Positions 22,856 to 40,171 of a stretch of 64,000 nt of DNA are shown piece after piece. Position numbers and translations under genes: made by a program. This DNA comes from Aquamicrobium sp. (GTDB lineage: Bacteria > Pseudomonadota > Alphaproteobacteria > Rhizobiales > Rhizobiaceae), in contig JAHHDT010000001.1 of assembly GCA_019739225.1 (NCBI GenBank), positions 496,001-560,000 on the forward strand. The letters run 5' to 3'. A model generated the notes under the pieces. The model ran no database searches. It was not told where the DNA came from and saw nothing but the letters and a program-made list of their open reading frames with translations. How positions within the stretch are numbered: position 1 is the first letter of the stretch; each line of letters opens with the position of its first letter.

Positions 22856-24430
22856 ATGAGCAACAGCATCGCTGAAGCGCGCAAGGAAACGCTCGACAAG
22901 GATCTCGACAAGCTAGTGCATGTCGAGGAAGCCACGAGCTTCGTCGCTCGTGGCCTCGTCGCGCCAGGCTTGGGACTGCTGTTCCTGGCGCTCACCGCGA
23001 TCGTCGCCTCCTTCTTCGTGATCGGCGAGCCGCGCGGCGTCATCATTATCGCTGCGGCCGCCATCGGCGGTTACATGGCCCTCAATATCGGCGCCAACGA
23101 TGTTGCAAACAACGTCGCCCCGGCGGTCGGTGCCAAGGCGCTCAGCCTTGGCGGCGCGCTTGCCATCGCCGTGGTTTTCGAAAGTGCGGGCGCGCTGATT
23201 GCGGGCGGCGACGTGGTCGGCACGATTGCCGGCGGCATCGTCAACCCCGGCGCCATCGGCGATCCGGCGGTCTTCATCCGCTTGATGATGGCCGCCCTCA
23301 TCTCGTCTGCGCTGTGGATCAATCTGGCAACATGGGTCGGCGCGCCGGTCTCCACGACCCACTCGGTGGTGGGCGGCGTGGTCGGCGCCGGCATCGCGGC
23401 TGCTGGCCTTGCGTCCGTTCAATGGCCGATGCTGGGCAATATCGTCTTGAGCTGGCTCGTCTCGCCGCTACTCGGCGGCATAATTGCGGCGGCCTTTCTT
23501 GCCTTCATCAAGACGGCGATCATCTACCAGGACGACAAGATCGCCGCCGCACGGCGCTGGGTGCCTTTGCTCATTGCTGTGATGGCCGGCGCGTTCGCGG
23601 CCTATCTCGCCACCAAGGGGCTCCGGCGCGTCATCAGCCTGTCGGGCCTGCATATCGCATTGTTGGGCCTTGCTAGTTTTGCCCTGACCTGGGCGGTGTT
23701 CACCATCACGGTTCGCCGTCAGTCCGAGACGATGGAGAACCGCAACCAGTCGCTGCGCAAGCTGTTTTACGTGCCGCTGATCTGCTCGGCAGCGCTTTTG
23801 TCCTTCGCTCACGGCGCCAACGACGTCGCCAATGCCGTCGGCCCGCTGGCGGCGATCGTGCACGCGGTCGAGGACAATGAATTCGGGTTCGCCGTCTCGA
23901 TCCCCTTCTGGGTGATGCTGATCGGTGCCGCCGGCATCTCCTTCGGCCTTGTGCTGTTCGGCCCCAAGCTCATCCGCATGGTCGGCGACCAGATCACCAA
24001 GCTGAACCCCATGCGCGCCTTCTGTGTGGCGCTTTCGGCAGCCTTGACCGTCATCGTCGCATCATGGTTCGGCCTGCCGGTCAGTTCGACCCACATCGCG
24101 GTCGGCGCGGTCTTCGGCGTCGGCTTCTTCCGCGAATGGTACACCGCCAACTCGAAACGCCGCCGGGCCTACATGGAACGCAAGGCTGAGCGTCTGCGTG
24201 CCGAGCGCAACGGCGGGGTCGACGCCTCGGCCGGCCCCGACGATCAGGAATCGGAAGCCACGGACGATCTCGAGGATACCGGCCCGCCCGTCTCGCGCGA
24301 AGAGATCAATCGCCGCCGTCTGGTGCGCCGTGCCCACGTCACCACCATCGTGACGGCTTGGGTCACGACCGTGCCAGCCGCCGCACTTCTGGCTGCGGGC
24401 ATTTTTCTGATTCTCGACGTCATAGCCTGA
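22856..24430 (+). CDS. pit: PiT-family inorganic phosphate transporter
   Basis: A 524 aa permease with the duplicated family signature: GANDVANNVAPAVG in the first half and HGANDVANAVGPLA in the second, each followed by PVSTTHSVVGG or PVSSTHIAVGA. About eleven membrane segments are visible. A hydrophilic loop near residues 440-495, rich in Arg/Glu, precedes the last helix. It would import phosphate (or metal phosphate) by proton symport. The ATG at 22856 has GGGAA 7 nt upstream; a TTG at 22844 is the alternative. No Pho box was seen upstream. Confidence 0.93.
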   Translation: MSNSIAEARKETLDKDLDKLVHVEEATSFVARGLVAPGLGLLFLALTAIVASFFVIGEPRGVIIIAAAAIGGYMALNIGANDVANNVAPAVGAKALSLGGALAIAVVFESAGALIAGGDVVGTIAGGIVNPGAIGDPAVFIRLMMAALISSALWINLATWVGAPVSTTHSVVGGVVGAGIAAAGLASVQWPMLGNIVLSWLVSPLLGGIIAAAFLAFIKTAIIYQDDKIAAARRWVPLLIAVMAGAFAAYLATKGLRRVISLSGLHIALLGLASFALTWAVFTITVRRQSETMENRNQSLRKLFYVPLICSAALLSFAHGANDVANAVGPLAAIVHAVEDNEFGFAVSIPFWVMLIGAAGISFGLVLFGPKLIRMVGDQITKLNPMRAFCVALSAALTVIVASWFGLPVSSTHIAVGAVFGVGFFREWYTANSKRRRAYMERKAERLRAERNGGVDASAGPDDQESEATDDLEDTGPPVSREEINRRRLVRRAHVTTIVTAWVTTVPAAALLAAGIFLILDVIA

Positions 24431-24573
24431 ACGCGCGATCCGCAACCTTGGCCCTGGGGAAAAATCCCCTGCCTTTGCGGCATGTGGAAGGGCCACAACG
24501 CCGCTGAACCGCGCGGCAGCGGTGCTACGGGACGGCAAGCCGGCAAATCGCTTCTCCCCGCTATCCACATTCT

Positions 24574-24590
24574 CCTACACAAGATGTAGG
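24574..24590. promoter_or_regulatory. Palindrome resembling an NrdR site
   Basis: CCTACA-CAAGA-TGTAGG is a perfect 6-bp inverted repeat. Its core, CACAAGATGTAG, fits the loose NrdR consensus CaCwAtATaTwG at most positions. It lies about 250 bp upstream of the stronger tandem boxes, so it is a possible extra or unrelated regulator site. Confidence 0.3.
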
Positions 24591-24824
24591 GGTCATAAAA
24601 CTTACAGAAACGAGTTCTTGACGGCACGGTGCGAGTCGCTTTTTATGGGCCATGCGCTCCTGTTGAGGGCGCGGCCGGAAAGTTTCGAGCCTGGCCGTTT
24701 TTTCCAGATTTGTTCCTGTTTTCGAGGGTTCGGCCGTTGTCGCGGCGGCTGACCGGCTTGCGTTTCGTACGCTGCCGGACAAGCGACATGGGCGCTGTGC
24801 CGTGAGTGGTTAAATCATCTGTTA

Positions 24825-24840
24825 ACGCTATATTTAGTGT
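24825..24840 (+). promoter_or_regulatory. NrdR box 1 upstream of nrdJ
   Basis: ACGCTATATTTAGTGT matches the NrdR consensus ACACTATATATAGTGT at 14 of 16 positions. NrdR is the ATP-cone repressor of ribonucleotide reductase genes. It lies 31 bp, about three helical turns, before box 2 and about 290 bp before the nrdJ start. Confidence 0.7.
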
Positions 24841-24855
24841 TTGCACCCACACTCG

Positions 24856-24871
24856 GCACTAGATAATGTGA
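24856..24871 (+). promoter_or_regulatory. NrdR box 2 upstream of nrdJ
   Basis: GCACTAGATAATGTGA matches the NrdR consensus at 11 of 16 positions and sits exactly 31 bp downstream of box 1. Paired boxes at this spacing on the same face of the helix are the known NrdR arrangement, which strengthens both calls. Confidence 0.6.
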
Positions 24872-25085
24872 ATTGTCGGGAACGCGTTTCACCGACGAGA
24901 ATCACAGTCAGGCGTCAGGAGACGGGCCCCGCCAAGGGGCGTTCGAAGGTTGGGGAAGCCGTTCGCGGCATCGTCGAACCGGAAGCGTTTCGCGGTAGGG
25001 GAGAGTCGTCATCGGCAGCGATGGCGGCAGGCGGCGGACTTGTGTCAGGAGATTGCGGCGCACGCGGTGCGTCGGCGGTCGAAAG

Positions 25086-25101
25086 GCACTATATTTAGAC
25101 C
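25086..25101 (+). promoter_or_regulatory. Weak NrdR-like match next to the nrdJ start
   Basis: GCACTATATTTAGACC matches the consensus at 12 of 16 positions, with the left half-site perfect and the right half lost. It is 17 bp before the ATG, where a bound repressor would block elongation or a nearby promoter. It could be chance. Confidence 0.25.
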
Positions 25102-25118
25102 ATAGGGACCAGAAGAAG

Positions 25119-28100
25119 ATGCGCATCGAACGTCGTTTCACCAAGGCTGGCCAGTCGGCCTATGCGGAGATCGAATTCCGCAAGGCTGTCAGCGAGATCA
25201 AGAACCCCGACGGCTCGGTGGTCTTCCGCCTCGCCGACATCGACGTTCCTGCGCAGTTCAGCCAGGTCGCCGCCGACATCCTGGCGCAGAAATATTTCCG
25301 CAAGGCCGGCGTGCCCGCGCGTCTGAAGAAGGTCGAGGAGAACGACGTCCCCTCCTTCCTGTGGCGCTCGGTCGCCGACGAGAAGGCGCTGGCCGACCTG
25401 CCCGAGGACGAGCGCTACGGCTCGGAGACCGATGCGCGCCAGGTCTTCACCCGGCTCGCCGGCACCTGGACCTACTGGGGCTGGAAGGGTGGCTATTTCG
25501 CCTCCGAGGATGACGCGGCCGCCTTCATGGACGAGCTCGCCTACATGCTCGCCACCCAGCGCGTCGCGCCCAACTCGCCGCAATGGTTCAACACCGGCCT
25601 GCACTGGGCCTACGGCATCGACGGCCCCGGCCAGGGCCACTATTACGTCGACCCCTTCACCGGCAAGCTCACCAAGTCTAAGTCGTCCTACGAGCATCCG
25701 CAGCCGCATGCCTGCTTCATCCAGTCCGTTGGCGACGACCTCGTCAACGAGGGCGGCATCATGGACCTGTGGGTGCGTGAGGCGCGCCTGTTCAAATACG
25801 GCTCCGGCACCGGCTCCAACTTCTCGCATCTGCGCGGCGAGGGCGAGAAGCTTTCGGGCGGCGGCAAGTCGTCGGGCCTGATGAGCTTCCTCAAGATCGG
25901 CGACCGCGCCGCCGGCGCCATCAAGTCGGGCGGCACCACGCGCCGCGCCGCCAAGATGGTCGTGGTCGACGCCGACCACCCCGACATCGAGGCCTATATC
26001 GACTGGAAGGTGAACGAGGAGCAGAAGGTCGCAGCCCTCGTCACCGGCTCCAAGATCGTGCGTCAGCACCTCACCGCCATCATGAAGGCCTGCGTCAACT
26101 GCGAGGCCGACAATGGCGACTGCTTCGACCCGGCCAAGAACCCGGCTCTGAAGCGCGAGATCAAGGCCGCCAAGAAGAACGCGGTGCCGGAGAACTACGT
26201 CAAGCGCGTCATCCAGTTCGCGCGCCAGGGCTACACCCAGATCGAGTTCAACACCTACGACACCGACTGGGACTCCGAGGCCTACCTCACCGTATCCGGC
26301 CAGAACTCCAACAACTCCGTCTCGCTCAGCGACGACTTCCTGCGCGCCGTCGAGGATGACGCCGACTGGAATCTGATCCGCCGCATCGACGGCAAGGTCC
26401 ACAAGACCCTCAAGGCCCGCGACCTGTGGGAGAAGATCGGTTACGCCGCATGGGCGTCCGCCGATCCCGGCCTGCACTTCAACACCACCATGAACGACTG
26501 GCACACCTGCGTGTCGGCCGGCGCGATCCGCGCGTCGAACCCGTGCTCGGAATACATGTTCCTCGACGACACGGCCTGCAACCTCGCCTCGATCAACCTT
26601 CTGACCTACCGCAACGCCGACGGCACCATCGACATCGCCGCCTACGAGCACACCGTGCGCCTGTGGACCATGGTGCTGGAAATCTCGGTGATGATGGCGC
26701 AGTTCCCGTCGTGGAAGATCGCCAAGCTCTCCTATGAGTACCGCACGCTGGGCCTCGGCTTCGCCAATATCGGCGGCCTGCTGATGACCTCCGGCATCCC
26801 CTACGATTCCGACGAGGGCCGCGGCATCTGCGCAGCGCTCACCGCGCTGATGACCGGCGTCGCCTATGCCACCTCGGCCGAGATGGCGAGCGAGCTCGGC
26901 GCCTTCCCCGAATATCCGGCCAACGCGCTGCACATGCTGCGCGTCATGCGCAACCACCGCCGCGCGGCTTACGGCGAGGCCGAGGGCTACGAGAAGCTCG
27001 CCGTCAACCCCGTGCCGCTCGTCGAGGACCACGTTCCGCAGAAGGAACTGGTCGAGCATGCCCGCGCCGCCTGGGACAAGGCGCTCGACCTCGGCGCCGA
27101 ATATGGCTACCGCAACGCCCAGGCGACCGTGATCGCGCCCACCGGCACGATCGGCCTCGTCATGGACTGCGACACCACCGGCATCGAGCCCGATTTCGCG
27201 CTGGTGAAGTTCAAGAAGCTCGCCGGCGGCGGCTATTTCAAGATCATCAACCGCGCCGTGCCGGAGGCCCTGCGCACGCTCGGCTACGGCGAGGCGCAGA
27301 TCGCCGAGATCGAGGCCTATGCCGTCGGCCACGGCAATCTGAACCAGGCGCCGGGCGTCAACCCGTCGACGCTGAAGGCCAAGGGCTTCGGCGACGAGCA
27401 GATCGCCGCCCTCAACGCCGCGCTGGGCTCGGCCTTCGACATCAAGTTCGTCTTCAACAAGTGGACGCTCGGCGAGGATTTCTGCCGCGACGTGCTCGGC
27501 TTCACCGATGCACAGCTCAACGACTTCGCCTTCGAGATCCTGCCGGCACTCGGCTTCTCGAAGAAGGAGATCGAAGCTGCCAACATCCATGTCTGCGGCG
27601 CGATGACGCTCGAGGGCGCCCCGCACCTCAAGGACGAGCACCTGCCCGTCTTCGACTGCGCCAACCCCTGCGGCAAGATCGGCAAGCGCTATCTGTCGGT
27701 GGAAAGCCACATCCGCATGATGGCGGCCGCCCAGCCCTTCATCTCCGGCGCGATCTCCAAGACCATCAACATGGCCAACGAGGCGACCGTCGAGGACTGC
27801 AAGGAAGCCTACATGCTGTCCTGGAAGCTGGCGCTCAAGGCCAACGCGCTCTACCGCGACGGCTCCAAGCTTTCCCAGCCGCTCAACGCCTCGCTGATCG
27901 AGGACGAGGATGACGACCAGGACGAGCTGATCGAGGAGCTGGTCGCAGCGCCTGCCGCCGCGAGGGCGGTGCAGGTGACGGAGAAGATCATCGAGAAGAT
28001 TGTCGAGCGCGAGGTGCGTTCGCTGCGCGAGAAGCTGCCGAACCGGCGCAAGGGCTACACGCAGAAGGCCGTGGTCGGCGGCCACAAGGTCTATCTGCGC

Positions 28101-28937
28101 ACCGGCGAGTTCGACGACGGCCGCCTCGGCGAGATCTTCATCGACATGCACAAGGAAGGTGCCGCCTTCCGTGCGATGATGAACAACTTCGCCATCGCCA
28201 TCTCGCTCGGCCTGCAATATGGCGTGCCGCTCGAGGAATATGTCGAGGCCTTCACCTTCACCAAGTTCGAGCCGGCCGGCATGGTCCAGGGCAACGACGC
28301 GATCAAGAACGCGACGTCGATCCTCGACTATGTCTTCCGCGAGCTGGCGATCTCCTATATCGGCCGCAACGACCTCGCGCATGTCGACACGTCGGATTTC
28401 TCCAACACCGCGCTCGGCCGTGGCATCAACGAAGGCAAGGCGACGCCCTTCTCCAAGGGGCTGACCCGCGGCGCCTCCCCGGTCAAGCTGGTCTCCAGCG
28501 TTGCCGGCGGCGGCTCCGAGCCCAAGGGCCAGGCAGGCGGTCATGCCCCTGCCCCGGTCCGCGCCGCCCCGGTCGCCGCGTCCGGCTCCAACGTGCGGGC
28601 GATCTCGTCCGCCTCGACGGTCACGGCGCTCAAGCCGCTCTCATCCGAGCAGCGCGAGGAAGCCACCGCCTTCAAGCGCGACTATGAGGAGCGCGCCAAG
28701 GAACTGGCCGAGGAAATCGCCGTCGAGGAAGGCGCGACCGAAACCGAAGCCCTCTTCACCGACGCGGCGGCAAAAGAAGCCGGCGAAGCCAAGGCGCTGG
28801 CCGCCGAACGCCGCCAGAAATCGATGATGCAGGGCTACACCGGCAATTCCTGCTCGGAGTGCCAGAACTTCACCATGGTGAGGAACGGCACCTGCGAAAA
28901 GTGCGACACGTGTGGCGCGACCAGCGGATGTAGCTGA
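25119..28937 (+). CDS. nrdJ: Adenosylcobalamin-dependent (class II) ribonucleotide reductase
   Basis: A 1272 aa enzyme that reduces ribonucleotides to deoxyribonucleotides using AdoCbl to form the thiyl radical, independent of oxygen. Key parts are the finger-loop region with [20 protein letters not shown] near residue 475, the [20 protein letters not shown] segment near 670, [11 protein letters not shown] near 850, and a C-terminal tail with C-x2-C and C-x2-C clusters ([15 protein letters not shown]) that re-reduce the active site. An Ala/Pro-rich linker (about 1130-1190) precedes this tail. The length fits the long vitamin B12-dependent NrdJ of alphaproteobacteria. The ATG at 25119 follows a purine-rich AGAAGAAG. 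It depends on the cobalamin genes further along the window. Confidence 0.96.
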
Positions 28938-28982
28938 CCGTTGAAGTAAGCACCGGCACTTAGGGGAGTTGAGGAGAAGAAT

Positions 28983-29003
28983 GAGCCCCGCCAAGCGGGG
29001 CTC
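28983..29003 (+). terminator. Stem-loop after nrdJ
   Basis: A perfect 9-bp stem GAGCCCCGC/GCGGGGCTC with a CAA loop lies 45 bp after the nrdJ stop. The T-run after it is poor, so termination efficiency is uncertain. It marks the border between the nrdJ unit and the AT-rich SIR2 gene. Confidence 0.55.
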
Positions 29004-29023
29004 AAGCTTGTTGGAATGGTAAC

Positions 29024-30340
29024 ATGCGCGAATGCGACTGTGCGTACTGTAAAAACGAGAAAGGATTTGCATTTCCGCCTGAATTACTTGAGCGGATAGC
29101 GAGCGGCGACGTCGTCATTTTTGCTGGTGCAGGTATAAGCACAGAGAACCGCGCTCACTGCAAGACAACGCTCTACGAAGAAATCAAGCATGAGCTTGCC
29201 GAGGAACGAGACCTCGATTTTCCTTCGCTTATGGACGCGTACTGTGCGCAGCCAGACGGCAGGATAAAACTAATCCAAAAAATCAAAAAAAGAGTCGACT
29301 ACTTTTCTTCTTTTCGTGGTTTCCGTGTGCCGATGACGCGCTTTCATAGAGCCATATTACCGCTCTATATGATAACTGATATAATAACTACGAACTGGGA
29401 TAATTATTTTGAAGAAGAGTCCGGGTTCACTCCATTTGTTTACGACCAAGACATTGCTCTTCTCGAAGGCTCTCGCCGACGTGTAATTAAGATACACGGT
29501 TCCCTAACAAATTTTGGCTCAATTGTTGCAACTACCAGCGATTATTCCAGCACTTTCAGAAGGCTTACGAAGGGACCTCTTGGCGCCTATGTGAAGAATA
29601 TTTTATCGTCGAAAACAATTATCTACACTGGATACTCCCTCCGAGACTCCAATTACCTGAGGATCGCCAAAACCATTGCACAGATGATGGGACCTTTTAG
29701 GCGGCAATCATATTTTGTGTCCCCAAATATTGATCGTGATTACCTCGAAAGTACAAATCTTAATATAATTCCTATTGAGACAGATGGCTCATTTTTCTTT
29801 GAGCAATTTCGCTTACACCATAAATCATCGCACCAGTGCATAATAGATGACAGCGCTTTTGACGACTGCCATGATCTGCTTCTTGCGACAAACGATCTTC
29901 ATCATGAAACAGCCGATAGATATTTGTCATCTCGTCGTCCGCTCCTGATTCTAGCGCTTGCATACCAAGATGGCCTTCAAGATGCGCTTATGCGCATCAA
30001 GGATCAACGCCGATCCGGCGAATACTATAACGCGCACCATTTACATAACCTAGTACGCGGCTATGAGATGCGTGTGAGGCAATACAGAAAGGAATCTAAC
30101 CACTGGGATGCCTGTTACTGTCGTGGCTATCAGAATGGTTTGATATACCTCCTTGCAGGCGGCGGAGACGTATATCCGCCTCCCGTGGAGCTTCTATTTG
30201 ATAAAGCCATTGATACCGTTCCCAAGGCGATGCGCTTCCCTCGGAATAAGCTGCCCAAGCGAGTGCAAACTGAATTAAGCCGACTTTCAAAGCGAGTAGG
30301 TCAAGGCCCCTTGATTCCCGAACACATTCCCTATGCCTAA
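29024..30340 (+). CDS. Stand-alone SIR2-domain protein (candidate defence NADase)
   Basis: A 438 aa protein with a SIR2_2-type fold in its first 265 residues: VIFAGAGIST (31-40, NAD phosphate loop), ITTNWDNYF with catalytic-type Asn124, RRVIKIHGS with His158, and IIYTGYSLRDSNY (199-211). This Asn/His pair is what NAD-cleaving SIR2 domains of anti-phage systems use. The remaining 170 residues are helical and of unknown fold, perhaps a sensor or oligomerisation part. The N-terminus has CDCAYC. Base and codon use are clearly AT-richer than all neighbours, so it was probably acquired by transfer. No partner gene (HerA, TIR, Argonaute) is adjacent. Defence is inference; SIR2 deacylase activity seems less likely, since no zinc Cys4 is seen in the domain. 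Confidence 0.8.
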   Translation: MRECDCAYCKNEKGFAFPPELLERIASGDVVIFAGAGISTENRAHCKTTLYEEIKHELAEERDLDFPSLMDAYCAQPDGRIKLIQKIKKRVDYFSSFRGFRVPMTRFHRAILPLYMITDIITTNWDNYFEEESGFTPFVYDQDIALLEGSRRRVIKIHGSLTNFGSIVATTSDYSSTFRRLTKGPLGAYVKNILSSKTIIYTGYSLRDSNYLRIAKTIAQMMGPFRRQSYFVSPNIDRDYLESTNLNIIPIETDGSFFFEQFRLHHKSSHQCIIDDSAFDDCHDLLLATNDLHHETADRYLSSRRPLLILALAYQDGLQDALMRIKDQRRSGEYYNAHHLHNLVRGYEMRVRQYRKESNHWDACYCRGYQNGLIYLLAGGGDVYPPPVELLFDKAIDTVPKAMRFPRNKLPKRVQTELSRLSKRVGQGPLIPEHIPYA

Positions 30341-30458
30341 CTGGCCAGCTAGCGTACAGATCTTGCAACTCCAGTGGTCTTGCAGAGGCGGCGGCGGGCT
30401 TATCGCCAACGTGACGGCGAGTACCTAGCTGGGACGCCCCACAAAGGAAAGGCCGACA

Positions 30459-30641
30459 GTGCCACTAGCGATTCGGGCATGCGGCGCGCTTCTTCCCACC
30501 CTCGCAGCCAAGGTCCTTGGCAGCGGCGTCTTTGCCGTCATCCTGACCGTCGTCGGGTTTCTCGCCAGTAGCAACACAGATGATGCGAACAGCATTGCCA
30601 ATCACGTCGGCGGGGCACTTCTGGCCTCTCGGCCCGGTTAG
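30459..30641 (+). CDS. Possible small membrane protein
   Basis: A 60 aa frame from a GTG at 30459 preceded by GGAAAGG. It contains one hydrophobic segment (about residues 9-36, LLPTLAAKVLGSGVFAVILTVVGFLA) followed by a polar tail ending ALLASRPG. No family is recognised. It sits 118 bp after the SIR2 gene on the same strand, in a 303 bp gap with no other candidate. It may be a real small protein or chance. Confidence 0.35.
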   Translation: MPLAIRACGALLPTLAAKVLGSGVFAVILTVVGFLASSNTDDANSIANHVGGALLASRPG

Positions 30642-30643
30642 CT

Positions 30644-30892
30644 CTAGGCCCTTTCTTTCATGCAGTACGAGCACGCTCCAACGTCCTCGTAACGTGGTCC
30701 CAAGGACGCCATGAACTCTTTAGCTCCGGCCACAGTCGGAAAACCCGGGGATGGGTAACATGGTTGCCAATATGTCGGCCCGCTTCCTTTGTCTTGATTC
30801 TCCATCCCCTGACCGTCGCGGCAAAACTTGCAGTCACCGGCGTGAATGCGCGCCCGACCGCTCGGGGGTATGACTTTCACGAAATAGGCCAT
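30644..30892 (-). CDS. Cys-rich small hypothetical protein
   Basis: An 82 aa protein with a strong ribosome site (AAGGGAGG, 5 nt before the ATG). It has CxxC pairs at residues 21-24 (DCKFCRDGQG) and 74-77 (ACSYC) and a lone Cys45, suggesting a small metal-binding fold. The middle part FPTVAGAKEFMASLG reads like a short helical ruler common in rhizobial small proteins. I do not know a function. It is on the opposite strand to the SIR2 gene and closer in base composition to the core genome. Confidence 0.65.
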   Translation of the reverse strand: MAYFVKVIPPSGRARIHAGDCKFCRDGQGMENQDKGSGPTYWQPCYPSPGFPTVAGAKEFMASLGPRYEDVGACSYCMKERA

Positions 30893-31263
30893 GTCGCCTC
30901 CCTTGCTTTCCGCTAAACATAAACAAGTTTGGCCCGTATCGCGACAACCGCTTGAAGCGGATCAAAATTCAAGTGGAAGTACGGGCGACCTTCACGTCAC
31001 TATCTGTCAGCAGCCTCCGCCCCATTTCATCCACCTTCCCGAAGACCCCGCTTCCGGCATCGCCTTCATCTCCCTCCGGATGCGCCCCAACGGCGCGCGC
31101 ATCTTCCGGAGGTCTGGGATTACGACCTTTCCCGCACCTCGACGATAACGCAACAGCGGCTACCGACGCCGCCAGTTCTGGCGGTGCCAAGCCCGGCACG
31201 TCGGAAAACTTGTCCACGCCCCTCCACACCCGCACGATCCTGCCCGACCGAGCGGAGGGCACG
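30893..31263. other. Intergenic region between two hypothetical genes
   Basis: 371 bp separating divergent genes. No RNA gene, repeat or credible coding frame was found. It presumably contains both promoters; CTAAACATAAACAAG near 30914 is the only AT-rich patch. Confidence 0.35.
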
Positions 31264-32037
31264 ATGGACTGGAATGCTGCGATCAAGACGAACCGCGAGG
31301 CGCTCAGGCGGGTGCTCGCCATGCTCGTCGCCATGGTGGGGAGCGGTCCGCTTGGCGGAACGAACAGCCCCGACACGGGCTTTTCGGGCGAAGGAATGCC
31401 CGAGGTCATGGCCGGGGCTCGCCCCACTTTGCCCCGCTATCTCCACCGCGCGGTGCTTGCTCTGCTGCGCCCGGCGGAAGCGGCCGCGCGGCGGCTGGTC
31501 ATCATCGTTGCGCGCGATCTCGCAGCACCGCCCTCCGCACCACGCCTTGGAAGGCGGCCCGTCGCAGGCGACGGCGCAGGCGTTGCGGAGCCTCGGCGCG
31601 CACGTCCGCTCTGCCTGCCGCTCTTCGATCCGCTGCCGCGCTGGAACCGGCGTCAGCGCAATGCTGCGGCCGGCATGCCCCGCATCTCGTTTCCCGGCTT
31701 CACCCAGCCTGCGCCCATCCCGCAGCCCCCGAACGATTTCGATAGGGTCGGCGCTACCCGCCTCACGTTACGGCTTGCAGCACTCGGCCGCGCCCTCGAC
31801 GACCTGCCGCGACAGGCAACCCGTTTCGCGCGCTGGCGCGCTTCCCGCGACGCGCGGCGCAGGCGCCTCGAAACCGGCGCCTCCCGCCGCATCGGCCGCG
31901 TCTCCGCCCTGCGCCCCGGCCGCCCGCCCGGCCTCAAACCCGCCCGCCGCAACGGCTGGGCGCACGAGGTCCACGCGGTGCTGGACACCGTCCACGGCCT
32001 CGCGTTCTGGGCACTGGAGCCGGCCGACACCTCATGA
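31264..32037 (+). CDS. Conserved Arg-rich hypothetical protein
   Basis: A 257 aa protein starting MDWNAAIKTNREALRRVLA. A conserved-looking hydrophobic/basic block LPRYLHRAVLALLRPAEAA and VIIVARDL follows at about residues 57-85, then a Pro/Arg-rich region and a C-terminal HEVHAVLDTVHGLAFWAL helix. I recognise this layout from rhizobial 'hypothetical' proteins but know no function. There is no signal peptide; the N-terminal helix is amphipathic with a hydrophobic patch. It may bind nucleic acid or membranes because of its charge. Confidence 0.65.
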   Translation: MDWNAAIKTNREALRRVLAMLVAMVGSGPLGGTNSPDTGFSGEGMPEVMAGARPTLPRYLHRAVLALLRPAEAAARRLVIIVARDLAAPPSAPRLGRRPVAGDGAGVAEPRRARPLCLPLFDPLPRWNRRQRNAAAGMPRISFPGFTQPAPIPQPPNDFDRVGATRLTLRLAALGRALDDLPRQATRFARWRASRDARRRRLETGASRRIGRVSALRPGRPPGLKPARRNGWAHEVHAVLDTVHGLAFWALEPADTS

Positions 32038-32162
32038 CGCGCGGCAGCGGCAATCGATACCCGCCGGCAGGATCACGACAGCGGCAAAACCTAGAACCGG
32101 CCGGGCGCGGCAGCGCCCCGGCGACGATGAAGCGCGCCAATGCGCAAGGTGAGGCCGGCGCC

Positions 32163-32570
32163 CTACCCCGCGCCGGCAAGGCAGGGGTCGAGCATCACCC
32201 GGCTCTCGTCGACCGGCGCATAGCCGCCACCGAAGAGCACCACGTCGCCGGGCTGCATGCCGTTGGTGGAATAGGTCACGCACAGGACCCGCACGCCCGG
32301 CGCATCGCACATCACGAGATAGGCGAGCGTGCCGTCGGTCTCCACCGCCGAAAGCGCCCCGCGAACCGACATGGTGAGCCGCCCGTCATAGTCCGGCACG
32401 CGGTCGATCCAGTCGCCGATCGTCTCGCAGGTCGCCGGCTGGTCGGCATAGGCCTCGCCCTTGCGGAACGGCCCGGCCGGGTCGCAGCAGTCCTGCGCCC
32501 GCGCGGCTACGGAAGACACCGCAAGCGCCGCCGCCAGCGTCGAAGCGCGCAGGGCGCGAGCAGCCGTCAT
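32163..32570 (-). CDS. Secreted hypothetical protein
   Basis: A 135 aa protein with a signal peptide (MTAARALRASTLAAALAVSSVAARA, likely cut after residue 25). The mature part has six cysteines (DCCDPAG, ATCETIGDW, MCDAPGVRVLCVT, DPCLAG), suitable for disulfides in the periplasm. The pattern CETIGDWIDRVPDYDGRLTMSVRG looks conserved, but I do not recognise a named family. It is followed on the same strand by the BA14K-like gene upstream at 32679, so both small secreted proteins may be co-expressed. Confidence 0.65.
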   Translation of the reverse strand: MTAARALRASTLAAALAVSSVAARAQDCCDPAGPFRKGEAYADQPATCETIGDWIDRVPDYDGRLTMSVRGALSAVETDGTLAYLVMCDAPGVRVLCVTYSTNGMQPGDVVLFGGGYAPVDESRVMLDPCLAGAG

Positions 32571-32678
32571 GGTCGTGGTCCTTTCCGCTATGCCGTCCGG
32601 TGCGGACTATCGCGGCCAGCATGGCGGAACCAAGGCGCAACGGGCTCCCGCTTGCCTGATTGTTGGGCGGCTCCCGCC

Positions 32679-33377
32679 CTACTCGCACTGCCGGCGCGGG
32701 CCGCCGCCATAAGGCTGATAGCTGTTGTCCTCGACCCGGTACGAGCGGTAGCGACGCAGGCAGTCGTCGACATGCGCCGGCGACATGTCCACCAGCCCCA
32801 GCTCCCGCCAGGGGTCGCCCGCCGACGAGCCGGCGCCATCGTCCGCGACATAGCCCGCGACGTTGACGGCCTCGGCCGCGCCATCGGCAAATGTGAGGTC
32901 CCCGAGATGGGGCGAGACGCAGTCGCGCCGGCCGCCGCTATAGGGCTGATAGCTGTTGTCGGCCTCCCGGTACGAGCGATAGCGCTCGTAACACCACGCG
33001 ACATGGGCATCCATCAGCATCTGGACGTCGTCGTCGGTGATGGGGTCTTCCTCGGCCGGCAGCGCCGCCGTCGTCATCGACGACACCGAAACCGGCGCGC
33101 CCGTTTCGCCGGCGATCATGTCGCCCGCCTCATCGGCCTCCGCCGCGTTCACGGGGCTGACGCCGGCGGGCAGAACGGCAGCGATCCGCTCCAGCCCCTG
33201 CGCGCCGCGCTCCACCTGCCGGGGGATGCTCGTCCAGACGGACGCGACATCCTCCCCGCTGGCGTTGGGACGCCCCTCGGGCGCCGGCATCATCACGAAC
33301 ATGGCGAGCGCTATGCCGCTGCCGAAAACTGCCAGGGTCGTCACGAACCCGGTCGCGATTGCCAGAAGTGATTTCAC
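32679..33377 (-). CDS. BA14K-like protein with two repeats
   Basis: A 232 aa protein. A hydrophobic N-terminus (residues 1-30) acts as signal or anchor, and an acidic linker follows. Two BA14K-like repeats sit at residues 124-153 and 202-231; both read HVxxCxxRYRSYRxxDNSYQPYxGG and end in Cys. BA14K was first described as a Brucella immunoreactive, lectin-like protein; most members carry a single repeat, so the pair is unusual. The probable location is the cell envelope. The short spacing and matching sequence suggest internal duplication. Confidence 0.85.
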
Positions 33378-33576
33378 GATGCCTCTCCATTAGCTGGTCA
33401 CCGTTTAATGCAGCCGGACATGGCCGGTTCCATGATTCGGCCACAATCCGCCGACCGCGCCGGTCGCCCCTCGTCCCCGGCTTTCATTACGGCGAATTAA
33501 TCTCCCCGAAAGCGCGCCGTAATGTTCGCCCCCGCATCATCGCTTCAAGGGACACATCAACGAGGAAGCCAACCCC

Positions 33577-34425
33577 ATGAAAAAACTCATTATCATCGCG
33601 CTCGCCGCATCCGGCGCGGTCGTCGCCCAGGCCCACGCCGAGACACCCGACCAGCGCAGCGGCCGCGGCGAGTTCCGCGCCGAGATGCGGGCGCTGATCG
33701 CCGGCGACGGCATGGACGTCGCAGCCCTCGCCAATCTCATGCAGGAGCACGCCACCGCCCGCTTCGAGGCGCTGGATGCCGACGGCGACGGCATCGTCAC
33801 GAAGGACGACGTGCTGGCCGCCGCCGCAGAGCGCGCACAGAGCCGCTTTGAACGCATGGGGCCGAACGAGGACGGCATCGTCAAGCACGAAGGCCGGAAG
33901 GGCTGGCGCAAGCATGGCGAGCGCGGCGAACGTGCGGAGCGCGGCGAACGCCGGCAGCCGCTCAGCGAAGAGCAGCGCGCCGAGCGCATGCAGGAGCGGA
34001 CGAGCGAACACTTTGCGCGCCTCGACACCGACGGCGACGGCATGATTTCGCCAGAAGAGTTCCAGGCTGGCGCCACGGGCCGGATGGAGCGTTTCGCCGA
34101 GCATCGTGAACGCCGGGCCGAGCGCCGCGCGGAGATGCCTGAGGAGATGCGCGAGATGCACGCGCAGTTCCGCACCATGATGCGCGAGGGTGTGGATCTG
34201 GATGCCTTCTCCGGCTTCGCCCGCGATCGCGCGTCCGCCCGCTTCGACGCGATGGACGCCGACGGCAATGGCGAGCTGACGGCCGACGAGTTCACGGCCG
34301 AGGTTAGCGAACGCGCCGAGCGGGTCTTCGCCCGCATGGATCGCAACGAAGACGGCATGGTCACGTCGGACGATCGCCCCAACCGCGCCGGCAAGCGTGG
34401 CGAGGGTCCCCGCAGCAAGGACTGA
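33577..34425 (+). CDS. Periplasmic EF-hand calcium-binding protein
   Basis: A 282 aa protein with signal peptide MKKLIIIALAASGAVVAQAHA. EF-hand loops are visible at residues 67-78 (DADGDGIVTKDD), 150-161 (DTDGDGMISPEE), 227-238 (DADGNGELTADE) and 255-266 (DRNEDGMVTSDD), with a degenerate fifth at about 95-104 (GPNEDGIVKH). Charged, Arg/Glu-rich helices link them. It likely binds Ca2+ in the periplasm as a buffer or sensor. It resembles the EF-hand proteins of rhizobia and Brucella. A terminator follows its stop. Confidence 0.9.
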   Translation: MKKLIIIALAASGAVVAQAHAETPDQRSGRGEFRAEMRALIAGDGMDVAALANLMQEHATARFEALDADGDGIVTKDDVLAAAAERAQSRFERMGPNEDGIVKHEGRKGWRKHGERGERAERGERRQPLSEEQRAERMQERTSEHFARLDTDGDGMISPEEFQAGATGRMERFAEHRERRAERRAEMPEEMREMHAQFRTMMREGVDLDAFSGFARDRASARFDAMDADGNGELTADEFTAEVSERAERVFARMDRNEDGMVTSDDRPNRAGKRGEGPRSKD

Positions 34426-34442
34426 TCGGGATCGACAACGAA

Positions 34443-34469
34443 AAACCGCCCGGCACTGCCGGGCGGTTT
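34443..34469. terminator. Bidirectional terminator between EF-hand and lysozyme genes
   Basis: A perfect 12-bp stem AAACCGCCCGGC/GCCGGGCGGTTT with an ACT loop lies between two convergent genes. The stem ends in A/T tracts on both strands, so it can serve both directions. Confidence 0.8.
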
Positions 34470-34494
34470 GCTTACGTCAGAAGGTCGGCGAGGA

Positions 34495-35514
34495 TCAGTT
34501 TCGCGCCATCGCGGTGCCGTGGACGTTGCGCCCCAGCCAGCGATACCAGGTTGCGACGTCGCCATTGAAGACGTTGAGGTCGATCTCGCCCTTGACGCCC
34601 TTGGACAGGCCGGTGCCGGAATATTGCCAGAAGGCCCATTCGCGGCCGGGATAGCGCTTCGACGGATGGGCCGCGACCGAGCGCAGCCAGAACGGATAGC
34701 CGTTGAACGCGCCCTTGAGGTTGTCTTCGTAGAAATCGGGCGTCACGTAGATGATCGGCTTCTGGCCGTAGTGCCGCTCCAGCCGGTCCATGAAGACCTG
34801 CATCTTTTCGCGCACGAGCTGTGGCGAGAGCTTCTGCTTGCAGCTTGACTGGTGGTTCCATTCCACATCGATCACCGGCGGCAGCGCGCCTGCCTCTCTC
34901 GGCACGTTGCGGATGAACCAGTCAGCCTGCGAGGAGGCGGTGCGACACCAGTAGAAGAAGTGGTAGGCGCCGCGCTTGATGCCCGCCGCCGCGGCACCCT
35001 TCCAGTTCTTGGCGAACATCGGATCGAGATGGTCGCCACCATCGGTGGCCTTGATGAATGCGAAATTTGCGCCCTGGCTGCGCAGCCGCGCCCAGTCGAT
35101 ATCGCCCTGCCAGCGCGAGACGTCGACGCCGTGCACCAGATGGTGCTGCGGCGTGATCTTGCCGAAGTCCATCGGCATCGCGTCACTGAAGCGCTGGGAA
35201 ATCACCTTGGGGCGCGGGCCGGAGGCAGGCGGCGCTGCGGGCCTGGATTGCGGCGCGACCATCGCCACCTGCTGCATGGCCGGGGTGTCGATCGCATCCG
35301 ATTCGTTCAGCGCGGCGATCGCCGCCGGAGATGCGTCGGGATAAGCCGCCGCGGTGGCGCCGACGGCGGTCTGCGGCGTCACGGGGCGGACGATCGAGCT
35401 GGTCGTTTCATTCGACGGCTTGATCGACTGCAGCGCATCGATGGTTGAACCCGTGGAGCAGCCGGCCAGGACGAGAAGTGCCGCAAACATCGCGGTAGGT
35501 CGGAAAGGACGCAT
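34495..35514 (-). CDS. Lipoprotein glycoside hydrolase family 25 (lysozyme-like)
   Basis: A 339 aa protein. The N-terminus is a lipoprotein signal with lipobox LAGC at about residue 19. After a low-complexity linker, the GH25 domain covers residues about 130-335: HGVDVSRWQGDIDW, FAFIKATDGG, RGAYHFFYW, PPVIDVEWN (catalytic Asp/Glu pair) and PIIYVTPDFY. It would cleave the glycan strand of peptidoglycan, perhaps in cell-wall remodelling. The ATG at 35514 is preferred; a GTG 12 nt upstream is possible. It converges with the EF-hand gene across a terminator. Confidence 0.88.
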   Translation of the reverse strand: MRPFRPTAMFAALLVLAGCSTGSTIDALQSIKPSNETTSSIVRPVTPQTAVGATAAAYPDASPAAIAALNESDAIDTPAMQQVAMVAPQSRPAAPPASGPRPKVISQRFSDAMPMDFGKITPQHHLVHGVDVSRWQGDIDWARLRSQGANFAFIKATDGGDHLDPMFAKNWKGAAAAGIKRGAYHFFYWCRTASSQADWFIRNVPREAGALPPVIDVEWNHQSSCKQKLSPQLVREKMQVFMDRLERHYGQKPIIYVTPDFYEDNLKGAFNGYPFWLRSVAAHPSKRYPGREWAFWQYSGTGLSKGVKGEIDLNVFNGDVATWYRWLGRNVHGTAMARN

Positions 35515-35620
35515 GAAAACTCGCACACAAAACTGGAGTTTGCAGGCAAGGGAACGCGCCGCCCTGCCCGCCTCCAGTCACGCTTAACGAAAAATCACCA
35601 ACAATCACTGAATCCGAGCT

Positions 35621-36664
35621 TTAACCATGTTCGGCCTGCTCGACGGCCGTTGCGAGCGCGTCGCCGAGGCGGCCGAACGCGGCCTCGTCTCCGGGCAGGC
35701 CGAAGCGCAGGGCCTGCTTGTCGAAATCGAAGCTGCGCACCAGCACACCCTGTCGTCCCAGTGCCGCGGCAACAGCCCCCGCACCGGGCACGCGCACGAA
35801 GCGGTAGAGATCGGTGCCGCCAGAAACGGCTAACCCGTGCCGGTCAAGCAACGCATCAATCCGGGCAGCGTGTTTTCGGAGCCGTTCGCGCATTGCCTCT
35901 TGCCAGCAGGTATCGGCAAGTGCACGCAAGCCGATCTCCAGCGCCGGACCTGAAACCGCCCACGGACCGAGCCGGCGCCGCAGGTCTTCTGCCAGCTCTG
36001 GTGCTGCCAGTGCGAACCCGAGGCGGATGCCGGCGAGGCCGAAGAACTTACCGAAAGAACGCAGAACGACGATGCCGCCCGCCCCGACATCCGGCGCGAG
36101 GCTTTGGTTGCGCAGGCCGACATCCATGAACGCCTCGTCGACAACCAGCAAACCGCCTTTGGTTCGAAGGTGCGCAGTCAGTCGAAGCAAGTCGTCTCGC
36201 AGGCAGACACGCCCGTCCGGATTGTTCGGGTTGACGACGAACGCGACGTCGGCTTCGAACAGGGCATCGAAATCACGCGCTTCAACGACGGCGTGGCCAG
36301 CCAGCGCCGCCCCGCGCGCGTGTTCGGCATAGGTAGGCGACAGCACGGCCGCCCTGCCGGGCCGCACCAGTCCGGCTACCAGCGGCAGCAGGGCCTGCGT
36401 GCCCGGCGCCGCAGCGATGGACGCTGCGGACGGCGCTTCATAAGCCGCTGCCGCCACCGCTGCGAGTTCATCGGCGCGGCTTTCCTCGGGCAGACGTGCA
36501 AAGACGCTGGCGGGGAGATCGAACAGCGGATAGGAGTGCGGGTTGATGCCGGTGGACAGGTCGAGCCAAGGCTTCGGCGCGCCGGGATAGAGCCTCTCGG
36601 CACGCGACAGGCTACCGCCATGTTCCACCGTCCCTAGTCCCCTATCAACGCCGCTTGCCATCAT
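35621..36664 (-). CDS. cobC: L-threonine-O-3-phosphate decarboxylase (CobC/CobD)
   Basis: A 347 aa PLP-dependent aminotransferase-fold enzyme, named cobC in P. denitrificans (cobD in Salmonella). It makes (R)-1-aminopropan-2-yl phosphate, the linker of the nucleotide loop. Markers are WLDLSTGINPH near the N-terminus, NPNNPDG (145-151), DEAFMD, and the PLP lysine K206 in LRSFGKFFGLAG. It starts on ATGATG; the first ATG overlaps the start of divergent cbiB by 2 bp. No riboswitch is upstream. Confidence 0.92.
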   Translation of the reverse strand: MMASGVDRGLGTVEHGGSLSRAERLYPGAPKPWLDLSTGINPHSYPLFDLPASVFARLPEESRADELAAVAAAAYEAPSAASIAAAPGTQALLPLVAGLVRPGRAAVLSPTYAEHARGAALAGHAVVEARDFDALFEADVAFVVNPNNPDGRVCLRDDLLRLTAHLRTKGGLLVVDEAFMDVGLRNQSLAPDVGAGGIVVLRSFGKFFGLAGIRLGFALAAPELAEDLRRRLGPWAVSGPALEIGLRALADTCWQEAMRERLRKHAARIDALLDRHGLAVSGGTDLYRFVRVPGAGAVAAALGRQGVLVRSFDFDKQALRFGLPGDEAAFGRLGDALATAVEQAEHG

Positions 36665-39676: not shown

Positions 39677-39721
39677 GATTCGTCCTTTCCCCTCCACCCG
39701 AGGGAACGTGTTGCGATAGTC

Positions 39722-39890
39722 GGCGGCAGGTCTCCTGGCTCGCGGGTCACAGCCCTTCCCCGCCTTCCCGAAGCGAATGCTCCAGTGGCGTTTGGGGAAA
39801 GGCTCTCCGCCTACAGTTGCGGGGGCAGCCGCGGAATCGGGCGCTGTTGGCCCTCACCGCATTCCCTCTGGTCCCTTGCGGGAACCGACG
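39722..39890 (-). promoter_or_regulatory. Cobalamin riboswitch controlling cbtBA-cobPO
   Basis: On the minus strand the B12 box GCCAGGAGACCTGCC is at 39739-39725. Upstream of it lie the conserved core GGCTGCCCCCGCAACTGTAGGCGG and paired arms starting GGTTCCCGCAAGGGACC and GAGGGAATGCGGTG. The element ends about 46 nt before cbtB. When bound by cobalamin it should lower expression of cobalt uptake and the adenosylation/kinase genes. Confidence 0.93.
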
Positions 39891-39973
39891 ACGCATTCAC
39901 CATAGCTCAATTGCCGAGCGTCGCAACCCGCCAATCGACCCGCGTTGACAGCCCGCCCCGGCGCGACCTAAAT

Positions 39974-40152
39974 GGTCGGCGACGGTCCTGTTGCCGCGAG
40001 GTGACGGGCTAAGAGGGAATACGGTGCGCTCTTCGGGCAAATCCGTAGCTGTCCCCGCAACTGTAGACGGATAGTTCCTGTCGAATGCCACTGAAGCGGA
40101 TGCTTCGGGAAGGCGGCAGGAGCAGCGATCCGTAAGCCAGGAGACCTGCCGT
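39974..40152 (+). promoter_or_regulatory. Cobalamin riboswitch controlling the main cob operon
   Basis: The B12 box GCCAGGAGACCTGCC is at 40136-40150; the core reads GCTGTCCCCGCAACTGTAGACGG, preceded by GAGGGAATACGGTGCGC and the 5' arm at about 39974. It is oriented away from the first riboswitch, with about 80 bp between the two 5' ends. It lies 53 bp upstream of the GTG start of the DUF1636 gene. Confidence 0.93.
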
Positions 40153-40171
40153 CGCAGACCCAATCCTGACC

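Follow-up and report, generated by a model that had tools for sequence, protein, structure and literature searches.

A SIR2-family gene behind nrdJ in Aquamicrobium as a candidate one-gene anti-phage NADase

The DNA considered here is a stretch of 64,000 nucleotides from an Aquamicrobium genome (contig JAHHDT010000001.1, positions 496,001 to 560,000; hereafter the window), and our subject is a SIR2-family gene that lies in it directly behind an nrdJ-type gene. Five full-length members of its protein family were found: the window protein and its relatives in Mesorhizobium, in another alphaproteobacterium (G598), on a phage contig and on the Corynebacterium plasmid pCGR2. The gene and its parts are listed below in window coordinates.

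29024..30340 (stop codon included), plus strand: SIR2-family gene, 438 amino acids (aa), ATG start
29033..29050, plus strand: N-terminal cysteine motif CxCxxC (Cys4, Cys6, Cys9), codons 4-9; the three cysteines are invariant in 5/5 members
29075..29818, plus strand: SIR2 NADase-type domain, residues 18-265
29393..29395, plus strand: codon of Asn124, predicted catalytic, invariant in 5/5; aligns with TTNYD of KomC
29495..29497, plus strand: codon of His158, predicted catalytic, invariant in 5/5; aligns with the residue mutated in KomC H146N
29819..30337, plus strand: C-terminal domain, residues 266-438, a putative sensor or regulator common to 5/5 members
30323..30325, plus strand: codon of the near-terminal histidine His434, invariant in 5/5

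Judging from its sequence, we think it likely that the gene encodes a horizontally moving, one-gene anti-phage effector of the abortive-infection type, an enzyme hydrolysing nicotinamide adenine dinucleotide (NAD), that is, a NADase, with a sensor domain of its own at the C-terminus.

The frame at 29024-30340 is a real gene, beyond what chance would produce, as indicated by its 62% identity to the Mesorhizobium protein and by the pattern of substitution between the two genes. The differences at the first, second and third codon positions are 0.288, 0.213 and 0.675, and since third positions differ most, the protein is under purifying selection. The ATG at 29024 is the first possible start in the frame, and the conserved cysteines follow directly after it. 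The composition is foreign-looking for the host region. The guanine-plus-cytosine content (GC) of the gene is 45.8%, and at third codon positions (GC3) it is 45.3%, as compared to a GC3 of 90.8% in nrdJ. When the rest of the 64-kb window was cut into windows of 1317 nucleotides, the mean GC was 0.655 (sd 0.025) with a minimum of 0.594, in agreement with the initial annotation, which had placed the base composition of the gene far below that of its neighbors.

The same annotation had read four motifs in the protein, and all are present: GAGIST (residues 35-40), TTNWD with Asn124, KIHGS with His158, and YTGYSLRD. A search of SIR2_2 and of defence profiles, proposed at that stage, gave 63 bits (E 4e-17) for Pfam SIR2_2, whose gathering score is 24.5. 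The top matches of both sequence and model searches were the NAD-hydrolysing defence effectors KomC, ThsA and DSR2, with the deacylase sirtuins ranking behind; the models of ThsA, Dsr1/2, LmuA and PDC-S25 matched the SIR2 part of the protein only. We equate Asn124 with N112 of ThsA and N133 of DSR2, and His158 with H152 of ThsA and H171 of DSR2, residues whose role is described in PMC11263360. The domain is thus of the NADase type, and the hydrolysis of NAD+ by Asn124 and His158 is predicted on this basis. The only cysteines within residues 18-265 are Cys46 and Cys74, which excludes the Cys4 zinc module, as first noted from the sequence; the others are at positions 4, 6, 9, 272, 282, 364 and 366. 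Could the protein instead be a housekeeping NAD-dependent deacylase or an NAD-linked regulator? With no match to the deacylase sirtuin family PF02146 up to E 1, no zinc module, a foreign composition and the patchy presence described below, we find this hardly credible.

Outside the SIR2 domain, the family is defined by three N-terminal cysteines and a shared C-terminal domain, and the window protein has all of these traits at full length. The N-terminal cysteines are spaced as CxCxxC in three of the members and as CxxxxCxxC in the other two. The C-terminal domain has no match of its own in Pfam, PADLOC or NCBIfam. Residues 338-377 gave an NCBIfam match below the threshold (E 0.073), which, like the best match to solved structures (E 0.041), was taken as chance; the rows of the structure comparison cover mainly residues 11-270, which hardly touches the C-terminus. 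Among the loci compared, a profile of the domain found only the five members at E 0.01; searched as a module in further viral contigs, its sole match was the same phage contig. A low-confidence structural model suggests four helices of 20-28 residues between positions 276 and 379, and it is too weak for the fold to be named. The earlier description of a helical C-terminus of about 170 aa that defies assignment therefore holds for the assignment, while the helices are seen only in this weak model.

The family is small and mobile. The other members are 32-62% identical to the window protein; a profile of all five gives each of them an E of 3e-192 or lower, and the runner-up in the loci compared, at 2e-23, matches mainly in the SIR2 part. 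In its own genome the window protein is the sole match at E 1e-3. A scan of genome contigs with the window protein gave one relative, Mesorhizobium sp. YC-39, with 62% identity over the full length. Matches were found in 105 plasmid records, two of which covered at least 80% of the protein: the Corynebacterium glutamicum plasmid pCGR2 and a second record from that species, equal to it in size. An alignment search found one full-length relative among 23 viral-contig loci; viral contigs searched with the window protein alone gave nothing, and the phage records had no match at 1e-5 for either the window protein or that of the phage contig. In the taxonomic samples, which overlap, full-length matches were found in 1/8 genomes of the genus, 1/247 of the family, 1/397 of the order and 1/385 of the class, each time the window's own genome, and in 2/398 of the phylum, namely the own genome and G598; in the family of G598 the count was 1/149, G598 itself. 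At 1e-8, 24 genomes of the phylum sample had any match, and the 22 others match entirely or nearly in the SIR2 part only. The remaining matches in the genus and family samples were likewise chance or confined to the SIR2 part. One of them, a partial match in G002 (L004), spans 64 residues with one internal stop among unrelated neighbors and was taken as chance. The match in G006 (L003) was rejected as a family member, being a different SIR2 protein. That protein, of 482 aa (L003 121-2627), lies between two TIR-like open reading frames (ORFs), an arrangement that looks Thoeris-like from reading the ORFs. With a full-length presence in 1/8 and 1/247 genomes, the gene does not belong to the conserved core, and its GC of 45.8% sets it apart from genes of normal composition.

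The members sit in different contexts. The window gene begins 86 bases past the nrdJ stop, and the Mesorhizobium copy occupies the same site, less than 75 bases past the nrdJ stop on the same strand. In G598 (L031 1291-2697) the gene is directly behind a thiC-like gene, so named from sequence reading, which repeats the nrdJ layout. On the viral contig the family gene comes next after a serine integrase; since terminase subunits, a primase and a Sak4-like protein are encoded there as well, the contig is a phage. Next to the pCGR2 copy, the annotation has genes for a MobF relaxase and for an N-6 DNA methylase. In all five contexts the GC of the gene is below that of the surrounding sequence. The contexts next to an integrase and a relaxase raise the question of whether the NADase could be an exclusion gene of mobile elements, directed against competing phages and plasmids for the benefit of its carrier, and now stranded in the chromosome. 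The other three members have no integrase or mobilisation gene seen by eye in the stretch read, and the predicted biochemistry would be identical to that of an anti-phage effector; we regard this origin as unlikely.

It is worth comparing the protein with the known SIR2 systems, many of which work with a partner. ThsB, pAgo and HerA are such partners according to PMC11514479 and PMC10952713, and KomB is the partner of the SIR2 protein KomC according to the titles of structure entries. KomC, the SIR2 NADase of Kongming (PDB 8zsf/9v0g), has chains of 264-278 residues that were solved in complex with KomB, again by the entry titles; the window protein differs in having the N-terminal cysteine motif and a C-terminal domain of 170 aa, with no such partner seen adjacent. 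Family searches of the neighborhood covered the SIR2 gene and its 82-aa neighbor, and the latter matches no PADLOC model. ThsA carries a SLOG domain that reads the signal of ThsB, as described in PMC11204291. The best ThsA model matched at positions 11-231 of 478 only, and no SLOG model matched the window protein, the C-terminus of which is modelled too weakly to test the fold; no TIR-like ORF that could be a ThsB was seen by eye among the ORFs of 24000-36000 or around the Mesorhizobium copy. DSR1 and DSR2 are similar in kind, as single-chain SIR2 effectors, and in DSR2 the chain continues into an additional C-terminal region. The trigger of DSR2 is the tail tube protein of a phage, and the hydrolysis of NAD+ depends on N133 and H171 in its pocket, according to PMC11263360. 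It has, however, 1005 residues against the 438 here, and the NCBIfam full-length equivalogs score 13.5 (Dsr2) and 11.3 bits against a cut-off of 1400. The best PADLOC score belongs to the candidate PDC-S25 (3.8e-16), which matches over 107 of 517 model positions (140-246), the SIR2 core only; no paper naming it was found in the open library searched. The protein thus appears to resemble DSR2 in kind, and falls short of a full-length match to the DSR1/2, ThsA and PDC-S25 models. The literature drawn on also includes PMC11559045.

Given the number of described defence SIR2 proteins that need a partner, the gene might be the remnant of a two-gene system that has broken down, an effector without its sensor that is inactive or only toxic here. 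The C-terminal domain is, however, conserved in the five members, no neighbor is evidently common to the different contexts when compared by eye, and the codon pattern speaks for selection on the protein; such a remnant is in our opinion very improbable. No usual partner gene was seen adjoining the SIR2 gene when the ORFs were read by eye, as had been stated before, and the one-gene layout is supported. The claim of a stand-alone NADase defence gene can be kept for the NADase-type domain, the one-gene layout and the foreign composition, while NADase activity and the anti-phage effect are what we infer from them.

The description of the gene as isolated was misleading, for in near relatives the spot behind nrdJ is occupied by other genes of defence type. 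The features of this spot are the following.

25119..28937, plus strand: nrdJ-type gene, the left border, named by reading and not by family search
28916..30985, no strand: exchanged segment, unaligned to the near relative G003, starting within the nrdJ frame, 22 bases from its end
28982..29004, no strand: hairpin of 10 pairs (8 G-C) with a loop of 3, between nrdJ and the SIR2 start; T-rich tail on the minus strand
30644..30892, minus strand: cysteine-rich ORF of 82 aa within the exchanged segment

The frame of nrdJ is open from a TTG at 25053, and the ATG at 25119 is the probable conserved start. The 82-aa ORF had no family above the cut-off in Pfam, PADLOC or NCBIfam and was found in none of the other loci compared. 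A comparison of the locus among relatives, suggested in the initial annotation, showed that the site had been exchanged for other cargo in G003, which belongs to the same genus. This genome is 97.6% identical to the window over 24001-28915, has 3775 other bases in place of 28916..30985, and matches again from 30986 at 88-90%. Over the terminal 93 bases of nrdJ, the window and G003 differ at 12 of the final 28 positions as compared to 2 of the 65 preceding ones; the exchange therefore begins inside the end of nrdJ. The cargo of G003 is an AAA ATPase with NsnB/AriA/Old-type matches. At this locus (L131 640-3808) two transposase-like ORFs (640-1062 and 1059-1886) precede the ATPase gene and look like an insertion sequence that lies within or ahead of the start of that gene. 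In the same genus, G001 has a CBASS-type cyclase behind nrdJ, G004 a ThsB-like TIR protein, G006 a DUF3800 protein just over the cut-off, and G007 an ORF without family; nothing comparable was seen in G002 and G005. With the window included, defence-type genes are found there in four of the eight genomes. Ten ORFs near nrdJ in other genera, chosen non-randomly, mainly by low GC3 and place, comprised a PD-T7-4 protein (1e-71; DUF4145), a PDC-S31 protein (DUF2971), a PDC-M34A protein, two M78 peptidases, an AbiU2-type HEPN protein, a P63C protein and three without family. The SIR2 protein itself had no match in 40 nrdJ loci or in six further loci of the genus. No convincing flanking direct repeats were found as attachment sites, and Rfam gave no match over seven loci. 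The spot behind nrdJ holds exchangeable cargo, with defence-type genes swapped among near relatives.

How special is this spot? For the control counts, six loci whose downstream sequence was shorter than 5.5 kb were dropped (L092, L093, L102, L106, L109 and L114). Of the 40 genomes that remained, G763 and G823 lacked an upstream stretch and do not enter the 5' set, and the window and L002 were excluded from both the downstream and the 5' sets. In the 38 genomes with both nrdJ flanks, the first kilobase had a GC below 0.52 downstream in 12 and upstream in one (Fisher p 0.0014), and was lower downstream than upstream in 24 (Wilcoxon p 0.013). It was also lower than the sequence 3-5.5 kb downstream in 29/40 loci (p 3e-6). 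The ORF sets hold many spurious frames, this being high-GC DNA. At 1e-8, PADLOC gave 12 models in 52 downstream ORFs, assigned to 5 to 7 proteins, and no match in 45 upstream ORFs (Fisher p 0.014 if 7, 0.029 if 6); the ATPase of L131 is outside the 1.3 kb limit because of the transposase-like ORFs that precede it. However, the frequency of matches is about the same for ORFs lying 3-4.3 kb downstream, with 7 models in 1 to 7 of 40 ORFs. A concentration of PADLOC matches right behind nrdJ holds against the 5' side and fails against this farther region: the downstream side of nrdJ is variable as a whole, and a sharp peak directly behind the gene is unsupported.

As to how the effector would work, the N-terminal SIR2 domain would hydrolyse NAD+ through Asn124 and His158, and the C-terminal domain of about 170 residues would hold the enzyme off until it meets a phage product, and then switch it on; the infected cell would lose its NAD+ and the phage burst would fail. 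The role of the invariant N-terminal cysteines is probably in folding, in the binding of metal or in contacts within an oligomer. The gene would travel as a single cargo that settles behind housekeeping genes (nrdJ, thiC-like), beside a phage integrase or on a plasmid. Its expression could possibly come from leak-through from nrdJ: a scan of the plus strand upstream of the gene for sites of the sigma-70 type found none, the hairpin ends 19 bases before the ATG, and the Mesorhizobium copy has, by reading, a hairpin-like stretch between the genes too. In a bolder version, the N-terminal cysteines and the C-terminal histidine would meet, within one fold or between subunits, as a metal or redox latch. 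The latch would keep the helical sensor clamped on the SIR2 active site and would be opened by a phage product or by a change in metal or redox state; lacking a visible promoter of its own, the gene would by leak-through behind nrdJ stock the suicide enzyme in step with the synthesis of deoxynucleoside triphosphates (dNTPs), a process that phages exploit. We offer this latch as a quite unlikely elaboration.

If the one-gene effector is what it appears to be, it would add to the NAD-depleting SIR2 defences a compact design with less than half of the residues of DSR2. The cargo site that follows nrdJ directly in rhizobial genomes, at which one defence-type gene is replaced by another, unrelated one from relative to near relative, is in turn a simple place to seek further single-gene systems; no paper on such a site was found in the open library searched by title and start of abstract.

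Two minor observations concern the surroundings of nrdJ and the window at large. A stretch of about 70 bases recurs behind nrdJ, at most about 100 bases from the stop, in five genomes (L092, L120, L134, L135 and L136), one of which belongs to another genus; it is 76-96% identical between pairs, has no Rfam match, and may be the end of an element or a dispersed repeat. Two cobalamin riboswitches lie back to back in the window, 61 bases apart, at 39708-39904 on the minus strand and 39966-40167 on the plus strand; the neighboring nrdJ-type enzyme is B12-dependent.
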